Shown: one piece after another, positions 5,587-41,210 of the stretch
Layout: every line of letters begins with the position of its first letter
How positions within the stretch are numbered: the first letter of the stretch is position 1
Notes under the pieces: generated by a model
What the model was told of the DNA's origin: nothing
The model's input: the letters and a program-made list of their open reading frames with translations, nothing else
Databases searched by the model: none
Origin: Chitinophagales bacterium
Lineage (GTDB): Bacteria; Bacteroidota; Bacteroidia; Chitinophagales; Saprospiraceae
Direction: 5' to 3'
NCBI GenBank assembly: GCA_013299105.1
Contig: JAAFJY010000002.1
Coordinates: 310,001 to 374,000 of the forward strand
DNA length: 64,000 nucleotides
Made by a program: the position numbers and the translations under genes

Positions 5587-7260
5587 ATGAAAAAGCGTTT
5601 TCAATTTCAACATAAACTGGCTTATTTGGCCTTGTTTTTTGCCATGCTTCTGCCAATGGCTTGCGAGGATGTATTGAAAGAAGAAATCATCTCCAACGTG
5701 GGTAATGATTACCTCAATACGGGCAATGGCCTCAATGATGGGGTCAAGGCAGCTTACTCCTTCCTGCGCAGTTGGTACGGTACCGAACGTGGCCACAACT
5801 TTACCACCTTTGGCACCGATACCTATATGAACGGGGCCGACGGCAGTTGGAAGTTCATCAATACCTATGCCGCTCAATTTGACCCTCGGACGGGCCAGGT
5901 GCAGGAAATTTGGGACGATTATTACCGGGGCATCAATACTTGCAATGCCATCATTGATCGTGCTAGCAAAGTGACTGATTTGGCAGAAGCCGTTAAAAAG
6001 CAAAGAGTGGCGGAAGCCAAATTCCTACGAGCCAGTTTCTATTTTACCCTGACCCAATTGTTTGGCGGGGTGGACTTGCGCCTGAGCGAAACCTTGGCAC
6101 CTACCAAAGATGCCAAAAGGGCTACCATCGCCCAGATGTACACGGCCATCATCAAGGACCTGGAAGAAGCCATTGTGGACCTGGAGCCCAAGTTGCGCTC
6201 TACTGACTATGGCCGCGCCACCAAGCCTGCTGCCGAGCACCTGCTGGCCAAGGTGTATTTAACCAGGGCTACCTCGGAAGCCAAAGGAGCCGACGACTAC
6301 AACAAAGCCGCAACTTTGGCTGATAATGTGATCAAAAACTATGGATTCAAGCTGCTGCCGGATTTTGCCCAAGTGCACCAACAAGGGAACGAGATCAACG
6401 ATGAAGTGATTTTTGCCGTACAATATACTTATGATCCACTGACCAACGCTGGCGGAAATAACGCTCACGTGTTTTACCTCATGGAATACGACACCCAAGC
6501 TGGTATGCAACGCGACGTGGTCAATGGTCGCCCCTTCAAGCGTTACATGCCTACTACTTATACCTTGCAAACCGTGTTCGCGCCCGAAAATCGGGTAAAC
6601 GATAGCCGCTATTTCAAGACCTTTGTGAATGCTTACATCAGCAACCGGGCGGGTACATTCAATACCGCGTTCGATAACTCCAAAGCTACGATCACCACAG
6701 CGGTGGGCGATACCGCATTCTATCTACCAGGGGTAGAATGGACCCGCGAAGAGCGTGCCAAGAAGAAATACCAAGTCCTCACACCTTCGATGTACACCGA
6801 AAAACTGTTCCCCAGCCTGCGCAAGCACTTGGACGGCTTACGAGCTGACCGGACCGTGTTTGAAGGTGGTCGCGATTTTATCGCTTTCCGACTGGCCGAA
6901 ACGCATTTGATCAAGGCGGAAGCACTTTTGCAACAAGGCAAAAAGCAAGAAGCCGTGGACGCCATTAACGTGGTACGCCGCCGTGCAGCCTGGCCAGGCA
7001 AGGAAGCAGCCATGACCCTCACCGCCGATCAACTCAGCCTGGAGACCATCATTGAAGAGCGCGAGCGCGAATTAATTGGTGAACAGCACCGCTGGTTTGA
7101 CCTCAAGCGCTGGGGCTTGTTGGTAGAAAGGGTGAAAAAATACAATCCCCAAGCTGCCGCCAATATCAAGGACTATCACGTGTTGCGCCCCATTCCACAG
7201 GTGCAAATCGACCGAGTAGAAGGCGGCGCATCAGCTTTTCCGCAGAATACTGGGTATTGA
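5587..7260 (+). CDS. SusD/RagB-family nutrient-binding outer-membrane lipoprotein
   Basis: A 557-residue SusD-like protein. It has a lipoprotein signal peptide with lipobox PMAC (Cys26), then the helical SusD N-terminal region with TPR-like segments (for example AEAKFLRASFYFTLTQLFGG), and the typical C-terminal RagB/SusD block, including IIEERERELIGEQHRWFDLKRWG near residues 479-500. SusD proteins cap the SusC barrel and bind the substrate at the cell surface. It is transcribed with susC (22-bp gap) and followed by a strong hairpin, so the pair forms a two-gene operon. Confidence 0.95.
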   Translation: MKKRFQFQHKLAYLALFFAMLLPMACEDVLKEEIISNVGNDYLNTGNGLNDGVKAAYSFLRSWYGTERGHNFTTFGTDTYMNGADGSWKFINTYAAQFDPRTGQVQEIWDDYYRGINTCNAIIDRASKVTDLAEAVKKQRVAEAKFLRASFYFTLTQLFGGVDLRLSETLAPTKDAKRATIAQMYTAIIKDLEEAIVDLEPKLRSTDYGRATKPAAEHLLAKVYLTRATSEAKGADDYNKAATLADNVIKNYGFKLLPDFAQVHQQGNEINDEVIFAVQYTYDPLTNAGGNNAHVFYLMEYDTQAGMQRDVVNGRPFKRYMPTTYTLQTVFAPENRVNDSRYFKTFVNAYISNRAGTFNTAFDNSKATITTAVGDTAFYLPGVEWTREERAKKKYQVLTPSMYTEKLFPSLRKHLDGLRADRTVFEGGRDFIAFRLAETHLIKAEALLQQGKKQEAVDAINVVRRRAAWPGKEAAMTLTADQLSLETIIEERERELIGEQHRWFDLKRWGLLVERVKKYNPQAAANIKDYHVLRPIPQVQIDRVEGGASAFPQNTGY

Positions 7261-25607: not shown

Positions 25608-26660
25608 TCAATGCAAAGCAGCCTGACAATACCATTTTTCCAATACTTTTTCGGCCATTTTATCTTGGGGGGTGTAGTCTTTTTCCAGGTATCCCTCATG
25701 GCCATGCATGTTGGGAAACCACTTCCAGATGAAACCACCCTGCCACCAATCTCGCTCGGAACAAGCGTGCAAAAGCGCGTCCAGGGCATGGGCTTGAGCC
25801 AACTCATTGACCTTTAATTGTTGGATGTTTTGCTCTAATTTCCAGGTTTTACCCGCGCAACCATCTACGCTCAGGTAACCAAATTCCGTAAATGCAACTG
25901 GCCTTTCCTGGGTTTTAGCGTAGTTTTCGATCCGACGGAGGTAGGGTTGCCATGCTTCCAGTAAATCGTGAGGGCTGGGTGTTTTACTTTTTTTGAGCGG
26001 GAAATAAGCGTTGATGCCAATGAAATCCAATTTCCGCCAAAAAGGCACGGCGTCGAAGTCGTCCCAGTTGGCAGCATAGGTCACTTGCCCTTTGTATTGT
26101 GCTTGTACTTTGTCGATGAGTTGGGGCCAAAATGAAGGTCTTTTTTTGATGTGATTTCTGAATTCGGTGCCCACGCAAAAAACTTCGACATCCAGGTCTG
26201 TTGCCAATTTGGCGAAAGTGAGGATATAGTGTTCGTAGTCTTTCTCCCAATTTCCCCAAGCCTCATCAGTAGAAAAATCCAAGTCGCCAGTCCAGGCACC
26301 AGGTACGTATAACTGGGGCTTGAGCATCACTTTGATGCCTGCCAACCTGGCCTTTTGGATGGTTGCTGTGACACCCTCGATGCTTTCACCCCACCATTGT
26401 TTGCTACTTGAGTAGTGTACCTTGGGTTCGCCCCGGCGGGTGAATGCATAGGGGATGACGCTGATCCAACCTACGCCATTTTTTTTCAAAGAGGGCATGG
26501 GGTCCTGAGGAAAAGGTTTTGGAGGGGCCACAAAACTTACCCCAGTAAAAATGAATGGCCTTTTTTCTTTCGGAAAATCAAGGGCTCGGATGGATTGATT
26601 TGGCTCGCGGCAGGACCATAGGTAGCTACACAAAAGGCTTAGAAGCAGCAATTTTCGCAT
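25608..26660 (-). CDS. GH113-like glycoside hydrolase lipoprotein
   Basis: A 350-residue protein with a lipoprotein signal peptide (MRKLLLLSLLCSYLWSC, Cys17) and a TIM-barrel glycosidase fold like family GH113 (beta-mannanase-type). Probable acid/base Glu166 in FCVGTEFRNH and nucleophile Glu259 in VAFTEFGY sit at the ends of strands 4 and 7 as in clan GH-A; aromatic residues for sugar stacking are frequent (WWGESIEG, WGNWEKDY). It likely acts on a beta-linked oligosaccharide at the cell surface; substrate is not fixed by sequence. A minus-strand -7 box lies 32 bases upstream of the ATG. Confidence 0.8.
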   Translation of the reverse strand: MRKLLLLSLLCSYLWSCREPNQSIRALDFPKEKRPFIFTGVSFVAPPKPFPQDPMPSLKKNGVGWISVIPYAFTRRGEPKVHYSSSKQWWGESIEGVTATIQKARLAGIKVMLKPQLYVPGAWTGDLDFSTDEAWGNWEKDYEHYILTFAKLATDLDVEVFCVGTEFRNHIKKRPSFWPQLIDKVQAQYKGQVTYAANWDDFDAVPFWRKLDFIGINAYFPLKKSKTPSPHDLLEAWQPYLRRIENYAKTQERPVAFTEFGYLSVDGCAGKTWKLEQNIQQLKVNELAQAHALDALLHACSERDWWQGGFIWKWFPNMHGHEGYLEKDYTPQDKMAEKVLEKWYCQAALH

Positions 26661-26842: not shown

Positions 26843-26874
26843 TTTGTAAGAAATGGCGAAGTATTTTATCTTTG
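26843..26874 (+). promoter_or_regulatory. Promoter of the tRNA-like RNA
   Basis: TTTG (26843-26846), 20-bp spacer, TATCTTTG (26867-26874): exact Bacteroidota -33/-7 boxes, about 70 bases before the tRNA-like acceptor stem. Confidence 0.65.
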
Positions 26875-26943
26875 CAATATCAAAGCAAATGAGCGATGAA
26901 CAATATGGGCTGCAAAAATGCACAAAAGCCTGTAAAATAACAA

Positions 26944-27106
26944 TGTGAGGTGATGAAATTTTTGGCAGCCATGCCCTCTTGTCTCGGGGGTGGGGAGTTC
27001 GGAATAAACGTAGCGTAGGATTGGCAACAATCCAGGGGTTGACCACCAGGTTTCTCAATGTGCTATGGCTAACCGCCCCGTGGAGGTTCGAGTCCTTCTC
27101 TCACAG
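26944..27106 (+). ncRNA. tRNA-like RNA with a 91-nt variable region
   Basis: All tRNA helices can be drawn with correct spacing. Acceptor 7 bp: 26944-26950 with 27099-27105. Two-base spacer. D stem ATG/CAT (26953-26955 with 26970-26972), loop containing GG. One base, then a 5-bp anticodon stem (26974-26978 with 26986-26990) and 7-nt loop TTGTCTC (formal anticodon GTC). T stem 27082-27086 with 27094-27098, loop TTCGAGT. The region between anticodon and T stems is 91 nt (26991-27081); it can close on itself (TGGGG 26991-26995 with 27076-27080) and holds a perfect GGATTG-GCAA-CAATCC hairpin with a GNRA loop. D- and T-arm sequence resembles tRNA-Leu, but base 37 is T and no CCA is encoded. Not an ordinary tRNA. 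Confidence 0.65.
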
Positions 27107-27120
27107 CAGAGTTTTTTCGT

Positions 27121-27161
27121 AAAGCCTTGTAGTCCTTAGTTGGATTTGCAAGGCTTTTTTT
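27121..27161 (+). terminator. Terminator of the tRNA-like RNA
   Basis: Perfect 9-bp stem AAAGCCTTG (27121-27129) with 27149-27157, followed by TTTT, 15 bases after the discriminator base of the tRNA-like RNA. Confidence 0.85.
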
Positions 27162-27319
27162 ATTCAGTAATTGAATTTATGCGTTTGCTTTTTCGCATAT
27201 AAAAAGATGGAGAACAAATATTTTTGTGAAAATCAAAGTAAATTTATTGGATCCTAAAAGTAAATAATTGTTTGATTATCATGATTTTAATTTTACTAAC
27301 CAGTCAAAAATAATAAAAC

Positions 27320-27439: not shown

Positions 27440-28900
27440 TCAATTCAAACTCTCACATATGAATTCGTACAAGGTTTCGTATGGGATGGTTTCTATTTCG
27501 GGTGCCTGTTGGGCTTTGCTCAGTGGGACAGCAAGTAGTTTTTGGTAAAAAGGCAGTGCTTTGCGCTCAAATGCCACCCGCTTGTGATAGGAATTTGGCA
27601 ATTGCAGCAGCATTTTGATGAAGCAATTGCTCCGATAAGTACTATCCTGTTGCAAGTGGCGGTAAGCGTATTGTTTTAAGCTGTCAACGCGGTCAATGAT
27701 TTGGTCGTAGTCTTTGCTATGCAAAAGGTACAACATCTGGATGACAATCAAGGTGATGTTGCGTCCGCGTTTGTCTTTGGCATAAGCGGGTACCTCGTTC
27801 AAAAATCGTTTGATGCGGAAGTCACGCGTGGGCAGTGCTTCTTTGTTTAGTTTGCCTCGTAAAACGAGGTAATGGAATAAGGCTTCATTGATTTTCCACT
27901 GTTCAGCTACAACAGGAGTTTGTTTTGACAAGTTGGGGCTATTGAGCGCCTGAGAGGCCAGTTCGGCAGCGGTGTCGTAGTTTTTACAATGCAGATACAA
28001 TACTGTGGCACGATTCAAGGCTTGGTACCAGTTATTGGTGTCTTTTTCGGTGAAGCCAATTGATTGATGAACAATCTCTTTTCCTTTTTCGTATTCTTGA
28101 AGAATGATATAAGCCAATAGTTGCTTGTGTAAAAAGAGGTGATTTGCTGATCTGTGTAATCGATAATGTTTTTGGCCAAGTTTATTGAGTACCTCCTCAC
28201 AAACACGGATGACGCTTGGGAAATCTAGAATCATTATATAGTAATCAATATAAACATTGAAGGCAAAACTAAGTAATCGCATGGACTCATAACGATCCGT
28301 GTAATACCTAAGTTCTTTAATGTATCCTTCAACTTTTTGGTAATACGAAGGATCAAGCGTTTTTTCATGCTCTTTTCTACTGAGAAGTTCTGAGAAGTAA
28401 CGTTCGGCAAGAATTTCACCTCTCACAATGATGTAGCATTGGTCAACGAGCTCATTGTATGTTTTGAATTTCTTTTTGTCCTGGTCAAATCCGCCGTAAT
28501 GATTGGCTAGGTGACGGGCCAAGAGTAAAGTGACATCGGTAAGTTGGTTTTTGATGGCGATTTTGATGGTTTCTTCGGCTAATTCTATCGCTGCTTTCCT
28601 GAGAAATTTTTGCAGCATGATGTTGACCGCTGCGGCATTTTTGAAACACAAATGTGCTTCTTTATGAAGTTGGGTGGTTGAGTCATTGAATTCAACAATG
28701 AACAATAAATTGACCAAGCGTTCGCGCAATTGCTTTTTCAAACGCGAATAATAAATGCTTCGATAAGGGTGAACGCCAAAAAAATGTTCGGCTGCTTCCT
28801 CGTCCGATTTGAATTTTTTTGCACGGACTGCCTCGAAGAATTCTTTGAGTCGGGAATTGTCTTTGAATACCTCAAGGTGACGGATTTTATTCTTGTCCAT
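27440..28900 (-). CDS. Large helical protein of unknown function
   Basis: A 486-residue, almost entirely helical protein from ATG 28900 (an in-frame GTG is at 28954). It has no signal peptide or membrane helix. N-terminal residues 1-70 resemble a small charged domain (VFKDNSRLKEFFEAVRAKKF, HPYRSIYYSRLKKQL); the rest reads like degenerate TPR or alpha-solenoid repeats (for example NWYQALNRATVLYLHCKNYDTAAEL). I do not recognise a named family. It is divergent from the small 54-codon gene and its conserved promoter, and a second conserved promoter faces its 3' end. A regulatory or scaffolding role is possible but unsupported. Confidence 0.8.
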   Translation of the reverse strand: MDKNKIRHLEVFKDNSRLKEFFEAVRAKKFKSDEEAAEHFFGVHPYRSIYYSRLKKQLRERLVNLLFIVEFNDSTTQLHKEAHLCFKNAAAVNIMLQKFLRKAAIELAEETIKIAIKNQLTDVTLLLARHLANHYGGFDQDKKKFKTYNELVDQCYIIVRGEILAERYFSELLSRKEHEKTLDPSYYQKVEGYIKELRYYTDRYESMRLLSFAFNVYIDYYIMILDFPSVIRVCEEVLNKLGQKHYRLHRSANHLFLHKQLLAYIILQEYEKGKEIVHQSIGFTEKDTNNWYQALNRATVLYLHCKNYDTAAELASQALNSPNLSKQTPVVAEQWKINEALFHYLVLRGKLNKEALPTRDFRIKRFLNEVPAYAKDKRGRNITLIVIQMLYLLHSKDYDQIIDRVDSLKQYAYRHLQQDSTYRSNCFIKMLLQLPNSYHKRVAFERKALPFYQKLLAVPLSKAQQAPEIETIPYETLYEFICESLN

Positions 28901-28978
28901 AAAATTGACCAGTTGGTAAATTTCTTCCACAATATCCCAAATTAAAAATTTCACAATAGGTTGAAAATCAAGTTATAT

Positions 28979-33572: not shown

Positions 33573-33746
33573 GAGAATTTTGATATTGCTACTTTGTCCG
33601 TTCGGTTAGAGTCCGTTTATTATTTTCTCTCACTCCCAAAGACGACCGCCGGCATCCACCGGTCAAACCGATTTACCCGTATTTATTGCATGATATTGCC
33701 TCATCTGCCTGCACACACGGGCAGAGCAAGTTGGAGTATTTGTAGT

Positions 33747-36700
33747 ATGATGAAGAAGACATTTTTACCATTCGGATTGTTGTGCTTAGTTGCCATGACT
33801 TTGAGTGCCTTGGATAAAACCGATGGCCGATTGTATGTACGTCCAGTTCGCAAGGCCAGTCCTGTGGATACTGCTGTGATTGACACCGTTCCGCTCAAGG
33901 ACCGCAAGGAGAATTTCATCCTCAATCCCAAGCGCAATCCATTTGACCTGCCCGATCCTAAAACGATCGATAAAAAGGTGGAGTACAACCCAGCGTCCGA
34001 CAGTTACCTGATCGAAGAACGCATTGGGGAAGATTACTACCGTCCACCCAGTGAAATGGGCTTCGAAGAATACCTCAAATACCGTCAGAAAGAAGACGAA
34101 AATCGCTATTTCCGCGAGTTGGCCAGCAAAGCCCGTGGTAAAGATGGTAAAAATCCACTGGACCCTTTCAGCAAAATCGACGTCAAAAAAGACCTCATCG
34201 ACCGCCTTTTTGGCGGCAATACCATCAGTATCAACCCGCAAGGTAATGTGGACCTTTTGTTTGGCTACAACTATCAGAAACTAGACAACCCTGTCCTCAA
34301 CCTCCGCTCGCGTAATCTGGTCCAACCAGATTTCAACATGAACATCCAGATGAACCTGGAGGGCAAAATCGGCGAAAAACTCAATATTAATACCAACTAC
34401 AATACCCAAGCAACGTTTGACTTCGATCAAATTTTCAAAATCAACTACAACAGCGACCTCTTCAGCGAAGACGAAATCCTGAAAAAAATCGAAGCGGGCA
34501 ACGTGACGCTACCTTTGCGTGGATCATTGATTCAAGGGGTGCAAAACCTCTTTGGTCTGAAAACCGAATTGCAGTTTGGTCACCTTCGCCTTACGGGTTT
34601 GGTGGCCTCGCAGCGCTCGCAGCGCAAAGATGTGCGCCTGCAAGGGGGGAGCCAAGTCCAAGAGTTCGAAATTCGCGCCACCGACTACGAAGAAGACCGC
34701 CACTTCCTGCTTTCGCACTACAACCGCGAAGCATTTGATGGCGCGATGACCAACTTACCCCAGATCCGTTCGCTCTTCAAACTCGAATACCTAGACGTGT
34801 GGGTGACCAACACCCGTGGTGAAACCGAAAACGTGCGTGAAATCGTTGCCCTGGCGGACTTGGGTGAAGGTGCTCGCGATTGGATGGTTGACAAAAGTGG
34901 TGCATTGCAAATCAACAACAATGCCCGTAAAGACGTTAGCCAGCGATATATCCTGCCTGATAACCGGGCCAACGATCTTTATCAAAAATTGACAGTAGAT
35001 TCCACTGCTCGGGAAAGCGGAAAAGTGACCACATTGGTAGAGCGTACCCTGGGCCTTGACCGGGGCAATGCCAACAAGGCCGATGCTTATATCAAGGTCA
35101 ATGCAAGGCGTTTGCGCCCCTCGGAATACACTTTTCACCCAGAACTGGGTTTCATCTCTATGAAAGTCAACCTCCAAGCAGATGACATTGTGGGGGTTTC
35201 TTACCAGTATACTTACAATGGTAAAACTTTTACGGTAGGAGAACCAGCTTTTGGGATTTCCAATACCCGCTCGGATACGGCCCGTTCTACCCAGGTTTTG
35301 TTTGTAAAAATGTTGAAAGGCATCAATAACAACGTCAAAATTCCGACTTGGGACTTGATGATGAAAAACTTCTACTCCACGGGAGCTTCCCAGGTTGACC
35401 CAAAGGAGTTTCGATTCGATATTGTTTATGACGATCCTGGCAAAGGCGACAAGCGCTTTTTGCCCAAAGAATTATTGACCGCCGAAAACCAGGTCAAGGT
35501 AGGTGGCCGCCCTTTGCTGCGTCTTTTTAACCTGGACACCCTCAACGTCCAGGGCGACCCTTTTCCCGATGGGGTTTTTGACTTTGTGCCAGATTTAACC
35601 ATCTATCCTACTACGGGCCGGGTAATGTTTCCGGTATTGGAACCTTTTGGCCGCAGTTTGACCGCCAAGCTAGGTGGGGTACAAGAAGATGTTGACCGAT
35701 TTGTATTTGGAGAGCTCTACCGTGAAGCGAAACTGACTGCAGAACAATTTCCTGAAAAAAACCGCTTTTTGCTCAAAGGCCGTTACAAAGGCACCAACAG
35801 CCGCGAAATTTACCTGGGCTTCAATGTTCCACCCGGTTCGGTACGGGTAACAGCGGGCGGGCAATTACTGTTGGAAGGAGCCGATTACACCGTAGACTAC
35901 GGGATTGGCAAAGTAACTGTATTGAACGATGCTATCCTGAGTTCGGGCACACCAGTCAATGTTTCTTTTGAAGACAATGCTTTGTTTGGCTTCCAAAACC
36001 GCACCATGCTGGGTTTGCGGGCTGATTACCAGGTGAACAAAGACTTTAATATTGGGGCTACTGCCTTGCGCTTGTATGAGCGCCCCTTTACCCAAAAAGT
36101 AAACATCGGCGAGGACCCGATCAACAATGCCGTATATGGTCTGGATGTGAACTTCAAAAAAGATTTACCATTCCTGACCAAAATGGTCAATGCCTTGCCT
36201 GGGATTTCTACCAAAGCCACTTCCAGCATTGCGTTCGCCGGTGAGGTGGCAGCCGTGCGGCCTGGTCATGCTCGTGCCATCAACCAAAATCGCCTCGACG
36301 ATGGAGGGGTAGTTTACGTTGATGACTTTGAAGGTGCCAACAACACCTTCGACATGCGCCAACCTGTCAACCAATGGTTTTTGGCTAGCGTACCACAAGG
36401 CAACCCTTTGTTCTTGGAAGGTAACTTGGTCAATAACCTGGCCTCCGGTGCCAACCGCGCCAAAATGAGCTGGTATCGTATTGACAACTTTGGTGTACGC
36501 AATGCCAACGACAACAACAATCCTTATACCAGGGTGATTCAAAACCTGGAAGTATTCCGCAACCAGCAGTTGCAGCCTACTGATTTGCCCAATATCCAGA
36601 CACTGGACATGGTTTTCAATCCCAGCTTGCGCGGCCCTTACAACTTCGACCTGCCGGGTGGGTACCGCGATTCTACAGGCCGCAGATTGAGCGCAGGCTT

Positions 36701-39700
36701 GGACGTTAGTTCTGGTGACATTCGCCTGTTGAACCCCGCTTCTCGTTGGGGGGGGATCATGCGATCCATGAATACAACTGACTTTTTGACTGCGAACATT
36801 GAATACCTGGAATTTTGGATGCTCAGCCCTTTTTTGGATGAAAATGGGACCAACCAGCCTAGTTCCAAAGCGGATCGCAAACAAGGTAAACTGCTGATCC
36901 ATTTGGGCAGTGTATCCGAAGACATCCTGCGCGATTCCAAGAAATTTTTTGAAAATGGGATGCCGAGCCGTTTCAACCCTAACCGTGAAACCGAACGGAC
37001 CAATTGGGGCTTGATTCCACGTGCCCAGCAAATCACCAACTCCTTTGACAACGACGAAGAGTCAAGGGTGCTACAAGATGTGGGCTTGGATGGTATGGCT
37101 GACGAGCAGGAGCGAGAAAAATTTGCCCCATACCTTACGGCATTGAACCAAGTTAATTCCAATGCAGCCAATGCAGCAAGATTAGACCCCTCTGCGGATA
37201 ACTTCCGCTTTTTTAACGATCCTAGTTTTCCAGAAGGAACCGGGGTGATCGAACGTTACCGCGATTTCAATAACCCGCAGAATAATTCGCAAACCAATAC
37301 CACCCGCAACCAGTTTACCTCCGGTACCAACATCCCCGATGCAGAGGACCTGGACTTGGACAATACCCTGAACGAAGCGGAATCTTACTACGAATACGAA
37401 ATTCCAATTCGTAGAGCCCGAGGCAATAGTCGTGAGTTAGACCCCACTACTCCTTACATAACGGATACCATCGTGTCCAGTGATGGTCGCCGCATTTGGT
37501 ACCGCATTAGGGTTCCGCTGCAAGACAATAACCGCAAGAGTTTTGGTGGAATCAATGGCTTCCGAGCCATTCGATTCATGCGTTTGGTCATGACTGGTTT
37601 CGAAGAAGAAACGGTTTTGCGTTTTGCCCGCATGGAATTCGTACGCAACCAGTGGCTGACTTACAAGCAGGACCTTTCAGATTCTTTACAAATTTGTAGT
37701 GAAGACGGCAAAGACATCGTAGTGGATGCGGTTAATATTGAGGAAAATAGCTCGCGCAAGCCTTTCAATTATGTGCTACCTGTAGGTATCCAGCGCGAAC
37801 AACAAATTGGAGGAGTTATTCAAGCTTTCCAAAACGAACAATCGCTTACCTTGACTGCGAAAAGCGTTTGCGATGGCAAAGAAAAAGCCGTTTTCAAAAC
37901 TGTAAACATGGACATGCGGGTGTATGATCGCCTGAAAATGTTTGTCCACGCCGAGCGGTTCATTCAGGATGGCCAGCCTGTTCCTTTGGAAGATAAGGAA
38001 ACCAAGTTATTCGTAAGAATTGGCAGTGATTTCAAAAACAACTACTACGAATACGAAATCCCCTTGACTTTGTCCGAGGTAGATCGACTCCCAGCCCCTC
38101 AGCCAGGTGGAAGGCCGGTGAATGGCGCAGCATCCGATGAGTATAAATTGGAGGTCTGGAAACCAGAAAACAATGTGGATATTCCACTCGACACATTGAT
38201 TGAGATCAAGAAGCAACGCAATCTTCAAGGTATTTCGAGTGATCGAGAGTTCGTCGTCAATTTTAGTCGCACTTTGGCCAGTGGAGTGGTGGTGCCTTAC
38301 CAAATGAAAGTAAGGGGCAATCCTAACCTGGGTAACGCCAAGACCATCATGGTGGGTATTCGCAACCCCAGAAAAGATGAAACAGACCCTACTTCGACTG
38401 ATGATGGCCGCAACAAGAGCGTAGTAGTCTGGATCAATGAGCTTCGACTTACTGGATTAGATGAACGGGGCGGTATCGCGGCAATTGGTCGTTTGGACGT
38501 GCAATTGGCCGATTTTGGCAACATCACCGTTGCTGGCAACTATGGCGGCATTGGTTATGGCTCGATTGAGCAAAAGGTTCAACAACGCAGCCGTCGTGCG
38601 GACTCAGGCATTGACTTGGCAGCCAATTTTGAGTTAGGCCAAATGCTGCCCGAAAAATGGCGCATCAGATTGCCGTTTTATGCCCAATACTCCAAGCAAA
38701 CCAGCACGCCTGAATTTGACCCTTATGACAAGGATTTGAACTTGCGGGAAAAAATTCGCAGCACCAGTGCTGCTGACCGGGATTCAGTTGCTCGCCAAAC
38801 CCAGGAAATCCGCGAATCCTCCAGCATCAACTTTACCAATGTGGGCAAGGAGCGCAACCCTGAAAAGCAGTCAAAACCCGCACCTTGGGACATTTCAAAC
38901 TTCACTGCCAACTATGGTGTAACCACCGAAACCCGTAGCGATCCGATGATCGGCTCGGATGAAAATCGACGCCAGTCTGGGGGCTTGAATTATACCTACT
39001 CGCGCAATGAAGAACCGATCAAACCCTTCAAAAATTTGAAAGGGAATTGGCTGAAACTCATATCCGAGCTCAATTTCAACCCCTTGCCGGGTAGTTTTAT
39101 GGCCAGTACTTTGCTTGATCGCCGATTCCAACGCACGAGCTACCGCTTCACTGGTCTGGATGAAACAGGAAACACCTTCTTCAACAAGCGCTTTACTTGG
39201 GATCGCAACTACAACTTGCAATGGGGCCTCACCCAAGGCCTGAAATTGGTATTCAATGCCAATAATGCTGCCGTTATTGATGAACCAAATGAGGTCTTAT
39301 TGCTTGAGCGTTTCCCTGATAATCCAGTGGCATTGAAGCAGTATCGTCAAGATAGTGTTTGGAACAACATCCGCGATTTTGGCCGTACCAAAAACTACAC
39401 CCACGATTTTACCTTGACCTACACTGCTCCTACCAAACTTTTACCCATCCTGGAATGGATTCAGGCCAGGGGAACACTGCGAGGTGAATACGGCTGGACG
39501 GCTGCTGCTCTGAACATGCAATCATTGGGCAATGTGATCCAAAACGGCCAGGTCTGGCAAGCCAACATCGACTTCAACTTTGACCAATTGTATGGCAAAG
39601 TGCCTTATCTGCGCAAAATCGATCAGGCCAGGCCCAGTGCGCCCAAGAAAAAAGGCGAACGCCCAGCCAGCGACCGCGTGATCGACCCCAATGAAGACGA

Positions 39701-41210
39701 TGGTGAGAAGAAGGACAAGAAAAAAGGCTCCAGCGAGCCTAGTTTGGCTGAACGCATGCTGATCCGCCCTTTCTTGCTCTTGCGCAAAGCCCGCTTCAAT
39801 TACACCGAAAACCGAGGGACAGTAGTACCCGGTTTTACACCACAAGCCCGTATGTTTGGGATGCAGGATTTCAAAGCACCAGGTTGGGACTTCATTGCAG
39901 GCTGGCAGCCCCGCATCCGTGAATTGCAGCAAAATGAGGAATACACCAGTGCGGACTGGCTTCATCAAAACTCCTTGAGAGGTTGGATGAGTGCCGATAT
40001 TTTCCAAAACCAGGAAGTAGTGCAGAATTTCTCTCAGGATTACGATGCTCGCTTGACGGTAGAACCTTTCCGCGACTTCCGGGTAGATTTTGAACTGAAA
40101 CGCAACTATGTAAATAACCACAACCGCTTTTTCAAAGACACCCTTGATGATGGTAACGCGAACTTGGTTCACGCAGTACCTACCTATTTCGGCTCCATGA
40201 GTACGTCTTTTATGGCGGTCAACACGCTTTTTGGTACTGATTTGGACCAACTCAAGTCTTTGTTCCAAGTGTACGAAGCCAATCGGGTCATCATTTCGCA
40301 GCGCTTGGCCACGAGCCCAGAGCTACACAGCAATCCTTTCTTGGCGCGTCAGGGTTATCGTTATGGTTATGGCGAAAACCAGGCCCAGGTGACCATTCCA
40401 GCCTTCATTGCTGCTTACACGGGCCGCGACGCCCGTGGGGTAGACCTGAACGTGTTTGACCTGATGCCGATGGTCAACTGGCGCATGACTTACAATGGCT
40501 TGTCGCGTTTGCCTTTTTTCCGCGATTTCTTGCAAAGTTTCAGCTTGAGCCACGGTTACAAGTCGACCTTAACCATCAATAGTTACAGCCCCAACTTGCA
40601 GTTTTTCAGCGAACCGCTGGACCGCGAGCAGAATTTCCAGACCCGTCTGATCATCCCTGAGGTGCAGATTCAGGAAGGTTTCGCACCATTGGTGGCTTTC
40701 AATGCGGTATTCCAAAATGGCATGGGCTTCAACTTTGACTACAAGTTTACCCGCAACCTGGCCTTCAGTACCCTCAATAGCCAGTTGCAGGAGAACCGGG
40801 TCAAGGATGTTACCTTTGGTTTCAACCACACCATCAAGGATTTTGACATCAGCAAAGTACTAGGTGGCAAAAAACGCAAACCGAAAAAACCTACCAAGCC
40901 TGCGAACCCTCAGCCTGGTGGCTTGAACCAAAATGGCAACAATACCATTTCACCCAGGTCGCTGGTGCTGGCCTTCAACTTCAGTTTGCGCGACGACATT
41001 ACCATCGTTCACCAAACGGACTTGAATCAAGTGGAACCCACCCGTGGGTCTTATAACCTGCGTTTTTCACCAACTGCGGAATATAAACTCAACCAGCGCT
41101 TGTCGCTGCGTTTTGCATTCGACTACACCAAAATTTTACCCAAAACCTCGGCCAGTTTCCCACAAATTCAGCACAGTGGTAACGTGACCTTGCGTTTCTC
41201 TTTGAATTAA
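33747..41210 (+). CDS. sprA: SprA, type IX secretion outer-membrane translocon/gliding protein
   Basis: A 2487-residue protein read from ATG 33747 (a second ATG follows at 33750), where the signal peptide begins (KKTFLPFGLLCLVAMTLSAL); the open frame extends to 33594 without a plausible signal. Size and sequence fit SprA (Sov), the giant 36-strand barrel through which type IX secretion substrates cross the outer membrane. Recognisable blocks include NLLFGYNYQKLDNPVLN-like early strands, GVVYVDDFEGANNTFDMR, FWMLSPF, and repeated WINELRLTGLDE. The C-terminus ends in barrel strands (LRFSLN). Position just after ruvA is common in Bacteroidota. It implies the host has a T9SS and perhaps gliding motility. 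Confidence 0.96.
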   Translation: MMKKTFLPFGLLCLVAMTLSALDKTDGRLYVRPVRKASPVDTAVIDTVPLKDRKENFILNPKRNPFDLPDPKTIDKKVEYNPASDSYLIEERIGEDYYRPPSEMGFEEYLKYRQKEDENRYFRELASKARGKDGKNPLDPFSKIDVKKDLIDRLFGGNTISINPQGNVDLLFGYNYQKLDNPVLNLRSRNLVQPDFNMNIQMNLEGKIGEKLNINTNYNTQATFDFDQIFKINYNSDLFSEDEILKKIEAGNVTLPLRGSLIQGVQNLFGLKTELQFGHLRLTGLVASQRSQRKDVRLQGGSQVQEFEIRATDYEEDRHFLLSHYNREAFDGAMTNLPQIRSLFKLEYLDVWVTNTRGETENVREIVALADLGEGARDWMVDKSGALQINNNARKDVSQRYILPDNRANDLYQKLTVDSTARESGKVTTLVERTLGLDRGNANKADAYIKVNARRLRPSEYTFHPELGFISMKVNLQADDIVGVSYQYTYNGKTFTVGEPAFGISNTRSDTARSTQVLFVKMLKGINNNVKIPTWDLMMKNFYSTGASQVDPKEFRFDIVYDDPGKGDKRFLPKELLTAENQVKVGGRPLLRLFNLDTLNVQGDPFPDGVFDFVPDLTIYPTTGRVMFPVLEPFGRSLTAKLGGVQEDVDRFVFGELYREAKLTAEQFPEKNRFLLKGRYKGTNSREIYLGFNVPPGSVRVTAGGQLLLEGADYTVDYGIGKVTVLNDAILSSGTPVNVSFEDNALFGFQNRTMLGLRADYQVNKDFNIGATALRLYERPFTQKVNIGEDPINNAVYGLDVNFKKDLPFLTKMVNALPGISTKATSSIAFAGEVAAVRPGHARAINQNRLDDGGVVYVDDFEGANNTFDMRQPVNQWFLASVPQGNPLFLEGNLVNNLASGANRAKMSWYRIDNFGVRNANDNNNPYTRVIQNLEVFRNQQLQPTDLPNIQTLDMVFNPSLRGPYNFDLPGGYRDSTGRRLSAGLDVSSGDIRLLNPASRWGGIMRSMNTTDFLTANIEYLEFWMLSPFLDENGTNQPSSKADRKQGKLLIHLGSVSEDILRDSKKFFENGMPSRFNPNRETERTNWGLIPRAQQITNSFDNDEESRVLQDVGLDGMADEQEREKFAPYLTALNQVNSNAANAARLDPSADNFRFFNDPSFPEGTGVIERYRDFNNPQNNSQTNTTRNQFTSGTNIPDAEDLDLDNTLNEAESYYEYEIPIRRARGNSRELDPTTPYITDTIVSSDGRRIWYRIRVPLQDNNRKSFGGINGFRAIRFMRLVMTGFEEETVLRFARMEFVRNQWLTYKQDLSDSLQICSEDGKDIVVDAVNIEENSSRKPFNYVLPVGIQREQQIGGVIQAFQNEQSLTLTAKSVCDGKEKAVFKTVNMDMRVYDRLKMFVHAERFIQDGQPVPLEDKETKLFVRIGSDFKNNYYEYEIPLTLSEVDRLPAPQPGGRPVNGAASDEYKLEVWKPENNVDIPLDTLIEIKKQRNLQGISSDREFVVNFSRTLASGVVVPYQMKVRGNPNLGNAKTIMVGIRNPRKDETDPTSTDDGRNKSVVVWINELRLTGLDERGGIAAIGRLDVQLADFGNITVAGNYGGIGYGSIEQKVQQRSRRADSGIDLAANFELGQMLPEKWRIRLPFYAQYSKQTSTPEFDPYDKDLNLREKIRSTSAADRDSVARQTQEIRESSSINFTNVGKERNPEKQSKPAPWDISNFTANYGVTTETRSDPMIGSDENRRQSGGLNYTYSRNEEPIKPFKNLKGNWLKLISELNFNPLPGSFMASTLLDRRFQRTSYRFTGLDETGNTFFNKRFTWDRNYNLQWGLTQGLKLVFNANNAAVIDEPNEVLLLERFPDNPVALKQYRQDSVWNNIRDFGRTKNYTHDFTLTYTAPTKLLPILEWIQARGTLRGEYGWTAAALNMQSLGNVIQNGQVWQANIDFNFDQLYGKVPYLRKIDQARPSAPKKKGERPASDRVIDPNEDDGEKKDKKKGSSEPSLAERMLIRPFLLLRKARFNYTENRGTVVPGFTPQARMFGMQDFKAPGWDFIAGWQPRIRELQQNEEYTSADWLHQNSLRGWMSADIFQNQEVVQNFSQDYDARLTVEPFRDFRVDFELKRNYVNNHNRFFKDTLDDGNANLVHAVPTYFGSMSTSFMAVNTLFGTDLDQLKSLFQVYEANRVIISQRLATSPELHSNPFLARQGYRYGYGENQAQVTIPAFIAAYTGRDARGVDLNVFDLMPMVNWRMTYNGLSRLPFFRDFLQSFSLSHGYKSTLTINSYSPNLQFFSEPLDREQNFQTRLIIPEVQIQEGFAPLVAFNAVFQNGMGFNFDYKFTRNLAFSTLNSQLQENRVKDVTFGFNHTIKDFDISKVLGGKKRKPKKPTKPANPQPGGLNQNGNNTISPRSLVLAFNFSLRDDITIVHQTDLNQVEPTRGSYNLRFSPTAEYKLNQRLSLRFAFDYTKILPKTSASFPQIQHSGNVTLRFSLN

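Follow-up and report, generated by a model that had tools for sequence, protein, structure and literature searches.

In E. coli, the asparagine synthetase gene asnA is controlled by AsnC, whose own gene, asnC, lies divergent from it. Synthesis of asparagine in a tRNA-dependent manner is likewise known, as are the class II tRNAs. According to the parts of PMC4206432 drawn on here, bacterial GatCAB reads U1-A72, and the known proposal for the retention of GatCAB is the synthesis of asparagine on tRNA-Asn. The bacterial determinants for aspartate, as given in the portion of PMC9976931 considered, are G73, G10, G34, U35, C36 and C38, and that for leucine is A73; the same portion describes G1-C72 and G2-C71 as strictly conserved in bacterial tRNA-Asp. 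The portion of PMC2864571 consulted, which deals with 104 structured RNA candidates, names no tRNA-like or AsnC-linked motif. In a literature search with subscription journals mostly outside its scope, no title or abstract start described the tRNA-like RNA reported below.

The locus lies in a window of 64,000 nt (the whole stretch of DNA analysed) from the genome of a Chitinophagales bacterium of the Saprospiraceae. On the (+) strand, a promoter occupies 26843-26874, followed by a tRNA-like RNA at 26944-27107 and by a terminator at 27121-27162; the earlier note on this DNA had proposed this order, and direct reading of the sequence gives the same. Measured against what we take to be the Bacteroidota consensus, the promoter is of the type found in that phylum: TTTG at 26843-26846 is followed after 20 nt by TATCTTTG at 26867-26874. 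The pattern TTTG-N18-22-TAnnTTTG occurs no more than 120 nt upstream of the first RNA copy at 52 of 117 loci, and 50 dinucleotide shuffles yield a mean of 0.46 and a maximum of 2. The terminator is intrinsic and consists of a hairpin followed by a T-run. In the window, the RNA is flanked by two genes on the (-) strand, one for a GH113 glycoside hydrolase (25608-26660) and the other for a 504-aa protein without a Pfam match (27440-28954). Farther along, the window also holds a very large open frame of 2538 aa on the (+) strand (33594-41210), whose product appears to resemble the gliding/secretion protein SprA.

The RNA extends over 164 nt on the (+) strand, from acceptor position 1 to C74, and is recognised by the covariance model R1 with 153.5 bits, the copy being itself among the 26 sequences from which the model was built. 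Its cloverleaf is canonical, as had been described before, and each of its elements can be read directly. The 7-bp acceptor stem is formed by TGTGAGG (26944-26950) and TCTCACA (27099-27105); the 3' strand continues with G73 (27106) and C74 (27107), both also seen in the family counts. In the alignment, the D arm (26953-26972) has a 3-bp stem and GG in its loop and is tRNA-Leu-like. The anticodon arm (26974-26990) has a 5-bp stem and the 7-nt loop UUGUCUC (26979-26985), with the formal anticodon GUC at 26981-26983, U33, U37 and C38, and the T arm (27082-27098) has a 5-bp stem and the 7-nt loop TTCGAGT. The earlier observation that CCA is not encoded is correct; it is not an abnormality, since most ordinary tRNA genes of the window's genome are also without CCA and continue with C74 only.

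Between the anticodon and T arms lies a variable region of 91 nt (26991-27081), the length given by the earlier note. It opens with a two-part helix, VA (26992-26995 with 27076-27079) and VB (27000-27002 with 27073-27075), followed by an internal loop conserved in the family, AATAAA on the 5' side (27003-27008) and CTAA on the 3' side (27069-27072). Beyond this loop stands helix P2, in which 27010-27017 pair with 27059-27066, with a bulged base at 27067 and an additional pair 27009-27068. This second helix with its one bulge had been noticed before; the 3' coordinates first given for it were a few bases off. The sequence further contains a GCAA-capped hairpin of 6 bp, P3 (27018-27033), and a small hairpin, GGGTTGACCAC (27036-27046), of the form GG-UUGA-CC with a bulged A, which belongs to a long form of the RNA. 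Of the two, it was the GNRA-capped hairpin that had drawn attention at first. It is real in the window; in homologues it is altered or missing, being a variable part of the family, and the conserved hairpin is GGGTTGACCAC.

The gene finders applied here mostly pass over this RNA. Neither the window nor 24 RNA-bearing loci yield a tRNA call from ARAGORN, although it does call a short relative, L254; its tmRNA search, which covered 25 loci besides the window, is empty throughout. Against Rfam release 15, the window and six further sources produced no family at threshold, and four permissive matches (E 3.9-9.9) were discarded as being at chance level. A tmRNA was rejected as well, an anticodon arm being present and the tmRNA finder giving none. 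Folded by itself, the sequence does no better than its shuffled versions (z -0.51; -1.70 for the longer transcript), so that folding alone would not have revealed the RNA.

Homologues are nevertheless widespread. In 43 of 100 related genomes, a set to which the window's own belongs, BLASTN found matches with E 1e-9 or better, often in tandem arrays. The covariance model, applied to 395 genomes of the phylum, identified 40 carriers, of which 37 are among the 98 Bacteroidia sampled and three belong to group f68; members score at least 83 bits and other matches at most 62.3 bits. The window's genome has one copy, and the next matches there reach no more than 56.1 bits. A pattern scan of named genomes returned at least 120 stretches, 80 of which were analysed for the RNA; among the stretches listed are records of Pedobacter, Mucilaginibacter, Chitinophaga, Terrimonas, Dyadobacter, Spirosoma, Hymenobacter, Pontibacter, Algoriphagus, Cyclobacterium, Echinicola, Neolewinella and Portibacter and of an Ignavibacteriales MAG. 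Within families, presence is patchy. The covariance model found 68 copies in 41 sources (set A2) and 106 copies in 80 sources (set A3). With a partial copy (L112:11806-11985) and a match of 26.8 bits (L181:304-415) left out of the counts, 172 copies were kept, representing 164 distinct sequences, of which 163 were parsed in the main count; the remaining one, unparsed there, was parsed in the count of 66 copies used below.

The proposed structure was examined by covariation on an alignment of 26 long forms, on which 39 pairs had been drawn by hand. In this alignment 98.5% of cells are paired, compared with 47-58% in slid controls, a comparison that leans toward structure because the structure was drawn on the same alignment. 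Pairs changed on both sides number 18 of 39 (10.3 in shuffles), pair types 51 (36.5 in shuffles) and cells changed on both sides 93, against 22.0 (sd 3.9) in shuffles, none of 500 shuffles reaching 93. Kinship among sequences can lift an alignment above its shuffles even where there is no structure, and the safer measures are therefore the counts of pairs (18) and of pair types (51). Compensatory changes occur at acceptor pairs 4-69, 5-68 and 6-67, at three of four pairs of VA (100% paired), at all three pairs of VB (94.9% paired) and at seven of nine pairs of P2 (97% paired), and in the T arm, 100% paired, one pair is changed on both sides. These changes support both the cloverleaf and the helices of the variable arm. 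The earlier note had proposed a search for homologues with compensating changes; they were found, so the objection that there might be none falls away. It is nearly certain that the RNA exists and forms a conserved family.

The variable region ranges from 39 to 149 nt, with a median of 72, in 163 distinct copies, most of which share the two-part helix VA/VB, the internal loop and the distal helix P2; in 142 of the 163, the variable region contains AxAAA as well as CTAA. The long form, defined with at most one mismatch, accounts for 58 of the 163 and adds the hairpin GGGTTGACCAC together with variable hairpins; GGGTTGACCAC is near-invariant in the 26 aligned long forms, which were themselves chosen as long forms. 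At the other extreme, L254 (genome G168) is only 77 nt long and has an ordinary short variable loop. It retains U1-A72, G2-C71, G73 and C74 as well as the loop CTATCTC, a loop shared with longer-armed copies from Hymenobacter and Pontibacter records, and these shared bases make it a probable true relative. No AsnC-type gene (see below) was found in the 3 kb around it. Since the ends and the anticodon loop of L254 are kept without the variable domain, this domain can evidently be lost. The suggested fusion of a tRNA with a regulatory domain is only weakly favoured, the variable domain being as short as 39 nt in some copies and absent in L254.

Two further observations concern the variable region. 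A repeat-like palindrome, CCGATAGCTATCGG, lies in that region in two RNA copies (L098:5696-5833 and 6252-6401) and illustrates how much the region tolerates; the same element is found in the leader of L165. Separately, L022:1713-1909 / L122:5983-6179 combines the loop CTGTCAC, identical to that of tRNA-Asp in the window's genome, with an unrelated long variable region and may be a decaying copy.

Fixed bases stand at both ends of the acceptor stem and in the anticodon loop. The loci of set A3 were found by a pattern requiring U35, C36, Y37 and C38, and for this reason statements on invariance are based on set A2, whose 66 distinct copies were obtained with BLASTN and the covariance model and were not chosen by those bases. 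U1-A72, G2-C71, U3-A70, U35, C36, C38 and G73 are present in all 66, U33 in 57, G34 in 63 and U37 in 62. Over the 163 distinct parsed copies, G73 and C74 are found in all and U1-A72 in 162; G34 is found in 147, the other 16 having A, C or U; position 10 is A in 100, G in 33 and T in 30; U33 is found in 140 and replaced in 23, having been lost in several clades; and position 37 is a pyrimidine in 158 and a purine in five. Formal anticodons other than the usual one include CUC (5 of 171 parsed copies) and UUC (3 of 171).

Comparison with the cited determinants indicates that the RNA has the anticodon-loop and discriminator bases of an aspartate tRNA, lacks the A73 of leucine, and carries the GatCAB mark in place of G1-C72. 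Of the bases expected of an AspRS substrate, G73, U35, C36 and C38 are present in 66 of 66 copies; G1-C72 and, in most copies, G10 are missing. AsnRS should not charge the RNA, C36 not being an asparagine anticodon base. The intact cloverleaf and the formal anticodon GUC are features to be expected also of an unusual tRNA that simply decodes aspartate codons. We find this reading very improbable: the window's genome has normal tRNA-Asp genes, its copy carries a 91-nt variable region, the family is patchy within families of hosts, and U33 and a purine at position 37 are not kept. Indeed, the loss of U33 in some clades and the rarity of a purine at 37 make the reading of codons by this RNA unlikely, as far as can be judged from its bases. 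Among the interpretations offered by the earlier note, that of an atypical charged RNA is the one favoured by this pattern, in which charging bases and U1-A72 are fixed and U33 and purine 37 are not.

The end pair U1-A72 sets the RNA apart in its own genome. None of 46 distinct tRNA sequences called there by ARAGORN and read with U8 in place, a set that may be incomplete, has U1-A72; a tRNA-Lys printed with U-A is a call starting one base early, for which the Rfam ends give G1-C72. The one tRNA-Asn found has G1-C72 and the usual tRNA-Gln has A1-U72. Genes for tRNAs with five leucine anticodons and a normal tRNA-Asp are present. Two other tRNA loci outside the window were noted in passing. A second kind of tRNA-Asp(GUC) gene, with the acceptor GGTAGTG, lies at G000:C7:77598-77669 (L266), besides the usual one. 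At G000:C32:24905-25406 (L261) there is a tight cluster of unusual tRNAs called as His, Ile, Pro, Gln, Leu-like and Arg, which are extra to the normal set, some with imperfect acceptor stems, and which perhaps represent a mobile or phage tRNA cluster.

GatB was searched in the same 395 genomes, the presence of GatCAB being judged by GatB alone. Among the 98 Bacteroidia, RNA and GatB occur together in 37 genomes, RNA without GatB in none, GatB without RNA in four, and neither in 57 (Fisher p 7.5e-23, without correction for kinship); GatB is present in 40 of 40 carriers, including the three of f68. Outside the Bacteroidia, GatB is found in most genomes and the RNA only in f68, GatB without the RNA being there in its classical use. 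As for the four exceptions, G137 and G168 are without GlnRS and so need GatCAB for Gln-tRNA anyway, and G168 also bears the short relative L254; G250 and G297, both of family f25, have a weaker GatB match (E about 1e-105), possess AsnRS and GlnRS, and are without the RNA. Fifteen non-carriers were re-searched permissively for the RNA. Of 16 loci from G137, G250, G297 and four other genomes, three are without an ARAGORN tRNA call, and the core of the family was not found in these three.

Kinship limits how much these counts can say. On an AsnRS tree of 80 genomes, in which G168 is scored as having the RNA (it is scored as lacking it in the table of 98 and in the sets of 40), the RNA changes at least five times and GatB eight times. 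Well-supported branches provide four independent contrasts (five on all branches), of which 3.8 of 4 agree with GatB on average; a sign test on four contrasts gives p 0.125, four being too few to reach 0.05. RNA and GatB are absent together in separate families, in G092 and G211 (f20) and in G101, G218 and G454 (f23). The link between RNA and GatB is large in number and recurs across families, and it rests on few independent events.

Searches for asparagine enzymes and GlnRS covered 80 genomes: the complete set of 40 carriers, together with 40 of the 61 non-carriers among the Bacteroidia. AsnRS is over the cut-off in all 80 and GlnRS in 72, comprising 34 of the carriers and 38 of the non-carriers; GlnRS is missing in G262, G482, G168, G368, G137, G370, G378 and G436. 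Most carriers therefore need no GatCAB for ordinary Gln- or Asn-tRNA. In the table of PMC4206432, as far as that source was drawn on, tRNA-Asn has U1-A72 in 67 of 67 genera with AsnRS, GlnRS and GatCAB. This suggests that elsewhere tRNA-Asn itself could be the substrate of GatCAB; here, tRNA-Asn was read in the window's genome only.

The supply of asparagine by synthetases was also compared. AsnA is found in three of 40 carriers and nine of 40 non-carriers. Among the matches listed, 35 carriers and 37 non-carriers, out of 40 each, have an AsnB-like protein over the model cut-off; a general rule that carriers lack asparagine synthetase was considered and fails, AsnB-like presence being alike in the two sets. 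The type of protein differs. Again among the matches listed, an AsnB match that breaks off near profile position 385, which we take to denote an E. coli-like AsnB, is seen in none of 40 carriers and in 31 of 40 non-carriers, and neither AsnA nor AsnB is over the cut-off in the carriers G246, G285, G344, G364 and G415 and in the non-carrier G092. The longer AsnB-like proteins of the carriers may make asparagine or may act in other pathways. The difference in AsnB type and the five carriers without a synthetase fit, and do not prove, a need for another source of asparagine.

At 63 of 120 loci, which include some duplicate records, a gene for an AsnC-type regulator lies divergent from the RNA at a distance of 122-377 nt; seven of the loci had less than 300 nt upstream, with no neighbour visible. 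In the sequence around each of the 120 loci, no such gene was found in the other orientation. At first described broadly as of the Lrp/AsnC family, the neighbour was narrowed to the AsnC type by comparison with PDB and NCBIfam. Both neighbour proteins tried have the Pfam AsnC domains. The nearest solved structure to the protein of L105 is AsnC (2cg4, E 7e-32; Lrp, 1e-10), as it is for the AsnC-like homologue of the window's genome (2cg4, E 4e-36), 2cg4 being E. coli AsnC. In NCBIfam, the AsnC model is the best for five of five proteins tried, at 156-182 bits, which is below the equivalog cut-off of 227 bits. In the window's own genome, the homologue is on another contig (C22), not beside the RNA, and none of 19 loci of the window's family has an AsnC-type gene beside it. 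The connection of the RNA to the AsnC-type gene is strong. Among the neighbour proteins, the AsnC type forms the largest cluster.

This setting would also suit an RNA that acts as a regulator. An AsnC-type protein could control a base-pairing or protein-binding small RNA whose tRNA shape serves only processing and stability, much as E. coli GcvA controls the divergent gcvB RNA. The adjoining divergent regulator gene, tandem copies with differing variable regions, and the unpaired AxAAA and CTAA motifs conserved in the variable arms speak for this reading, which we nonetheless hold to be rather unlikely. It does not account for the fixation of bases read by charging and amidating enzymes at the acceptor ends and in the anticodon loop, nor for their persistence where the variable region shrinks to 39 nt or, in L254, is lost, and it leaves the GatB link unexplained. 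Alternatively, the RNA might be a sensor whose charged and uncharged states signal the supply of aspartate or asparagine, through the variable domain, to AsnC or to translation. Such a sensor would bring together the charging determinants, a separate structured domain and an adjoining amino-acid regulator; with the domain dispensable in some members, and several tandem copies in some genomes better suited to a carrier, it appears unlikely.

A carrier need not be one for asparagine. Non-decoding tRNAs that serve other aminoacyl-tRNA-dependent transfers exist, such as the staphylococcal cell-wall tRNA-Gly, and the RNA could hold unamidated aspartate, or glutamate as the occasional CUC and UUC anticodons would allow, for transfer to envelope, lipid or peptide. 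We think this quite improbable: among 41 neighbourhoods, in which the AsnC type accounts for 16 and the next clusters for six each, no transferase gene recurs beside the RNA, and neither U1-A72 nor the GatB link would be explained. The tandem arrays, for their part, could be read as the mark of a selfish or decoy RNA, a bait for anticodon nucleases or a relic of a mobile element. In 50,697 phage and 72,556 plasmid records, however, coverage of the query stays at or below 9% at any one place and only 27-base matches occur. The stable place beside AsnC across distant groups and the pairing kept through compensatory changes also argue against this origin, to which we give hardly any credence; the earlier idea of a decoy has found nothing in its favour.

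The reading that we prefer, with about an even chance of being right, is that the RNA has the dedicated task of carrying the amino acid while AspRS and GatCAB make asparagine on it, that it takes no part in decoding, and that AsnC controls the process. The RNA would descend from a tRNA-Leu-like body. AspRS would load it with aspartate by way of G73, U35, C36, C38 and usually G34, and the end pair U1-A72 would mark it for GatCAB, which would amidate the bound aspartate to asparagine. The loss of U33 in several clades, the pyrimidine at position 37 and the large variable arm could keep the resulting Asn-RNA away from aspartate codons. Asparagine might then be freed by deacylation or handed on, and AsnRS would use it for ordinary tRNA-Asn. 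In many lineages, the window's own family not among them, the gene of the RNA lies divergent from an AsnC-type gene as asnA does from asnC, so that a shortage of asparagine would lead to production of the RNA. The variable domain may keep out the ribosome or elongation factor, offer a binding site for a partner enzyme, or act in sensing. We infer aspartylation and amidation from the bases of the RNA and from its co-occurrence with GatB, and control by AsnC is likewise deduced; the release of asparagine is a guess. Several facts weigh against this scheme: G1-C72 and mostly G10, which aid aspartate identity, are missing, 16 of 163 copies are without G34, an AsnB-like protein is present in most carriers, G250 and G297 have GatB and GlnRS and no RNA, the GatB association comes down to four well-supported contrasts, and at none of the 19 loci of the window's family is the AsnC-type gene beside the RNA. 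Nor does the scheme account for the large variable domain.

More broadly, and only tentatively, the family may constitute a new RNA class, a tRNA-shaped cofactor outside translation that serves as a platform for making asparagine, with a level set by AsnC and a variable domain for control or release. Were this true, the gene in the usual place of an asparagine synthetase would encode an RNA, and that RNA would be a reusable biosynthetic carrier of a free amino acid, a part that early RNA has often been imagined to play. The literature searched offered no precedent for a non-decoding carrier that is dedicated to such a use and has a domain and a regulator of its own. The proposal also offers a testable answer to the question of why many Bacteroidota retain GatCAB despite having AsnRS and GlnRS; in the window's genome, the tRNA-Asn found is without the GatCAB mark and the tRNA-like RNA has it. 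Moreover, the family is conserved and widespread, was missed by ARAGORN and Rfam in the loci tried, and occurs in culturable genera.

Among known systems, tRNA-Leu is nearest in body, as the earlier note rightly held: the 3-bp D stem and the D loop are those of the tRNA-Leu genes of the window's genome, and the next matches of the covariance model in that genome are three tRNA-Leu genes. Unlike tRNA-Leu, the RNA has G73 rather than A73, U1-A72, an NUC anticodon with C38, extra helices and a conserved internal loop, and its variable region measures 39-149 nt, whereas the tRNA-Leu genes of the window's genome are 83-87 nt in all. The E. coli asnC-asnA pair offers the parallel of an AsnC-type regulator divergent from a would-be unit of asparagine supply; here the partner of the regulator is an RNA and not an enzyme gene. 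With tmRNA and other Rfam families the RNA shares tRNA-like ends, but it has a full anticodon arm. In allo-tRNAs and tRNA-Sec the acceptor/T arms are 8/4 or 9/3 and the identity is that of serine, whereas the RNA described here has 7/5 arms and aspartate-type bases. In the portion of PMC7609411 considered, allo-tRNAs and tRNA-Sec resemble it in their unusual, class II-like build, and GUC occurs among allo-tRNA anticodons. Finally, the AspRS-GatCAB route on tRNA-Asp and tRNA-Asn of Bdellovibrio and others, as presented in the parts of PMC4206432 drawn on, shares with the RNA the bases G73, U35, C36 and C38 and the pair U1-A72. The RNA differs from the substrates of that route in being separate from tRNA-Asp and tRNA-Asn, in being unfit for decoding, and in missing G1-C72 and mostly G10.
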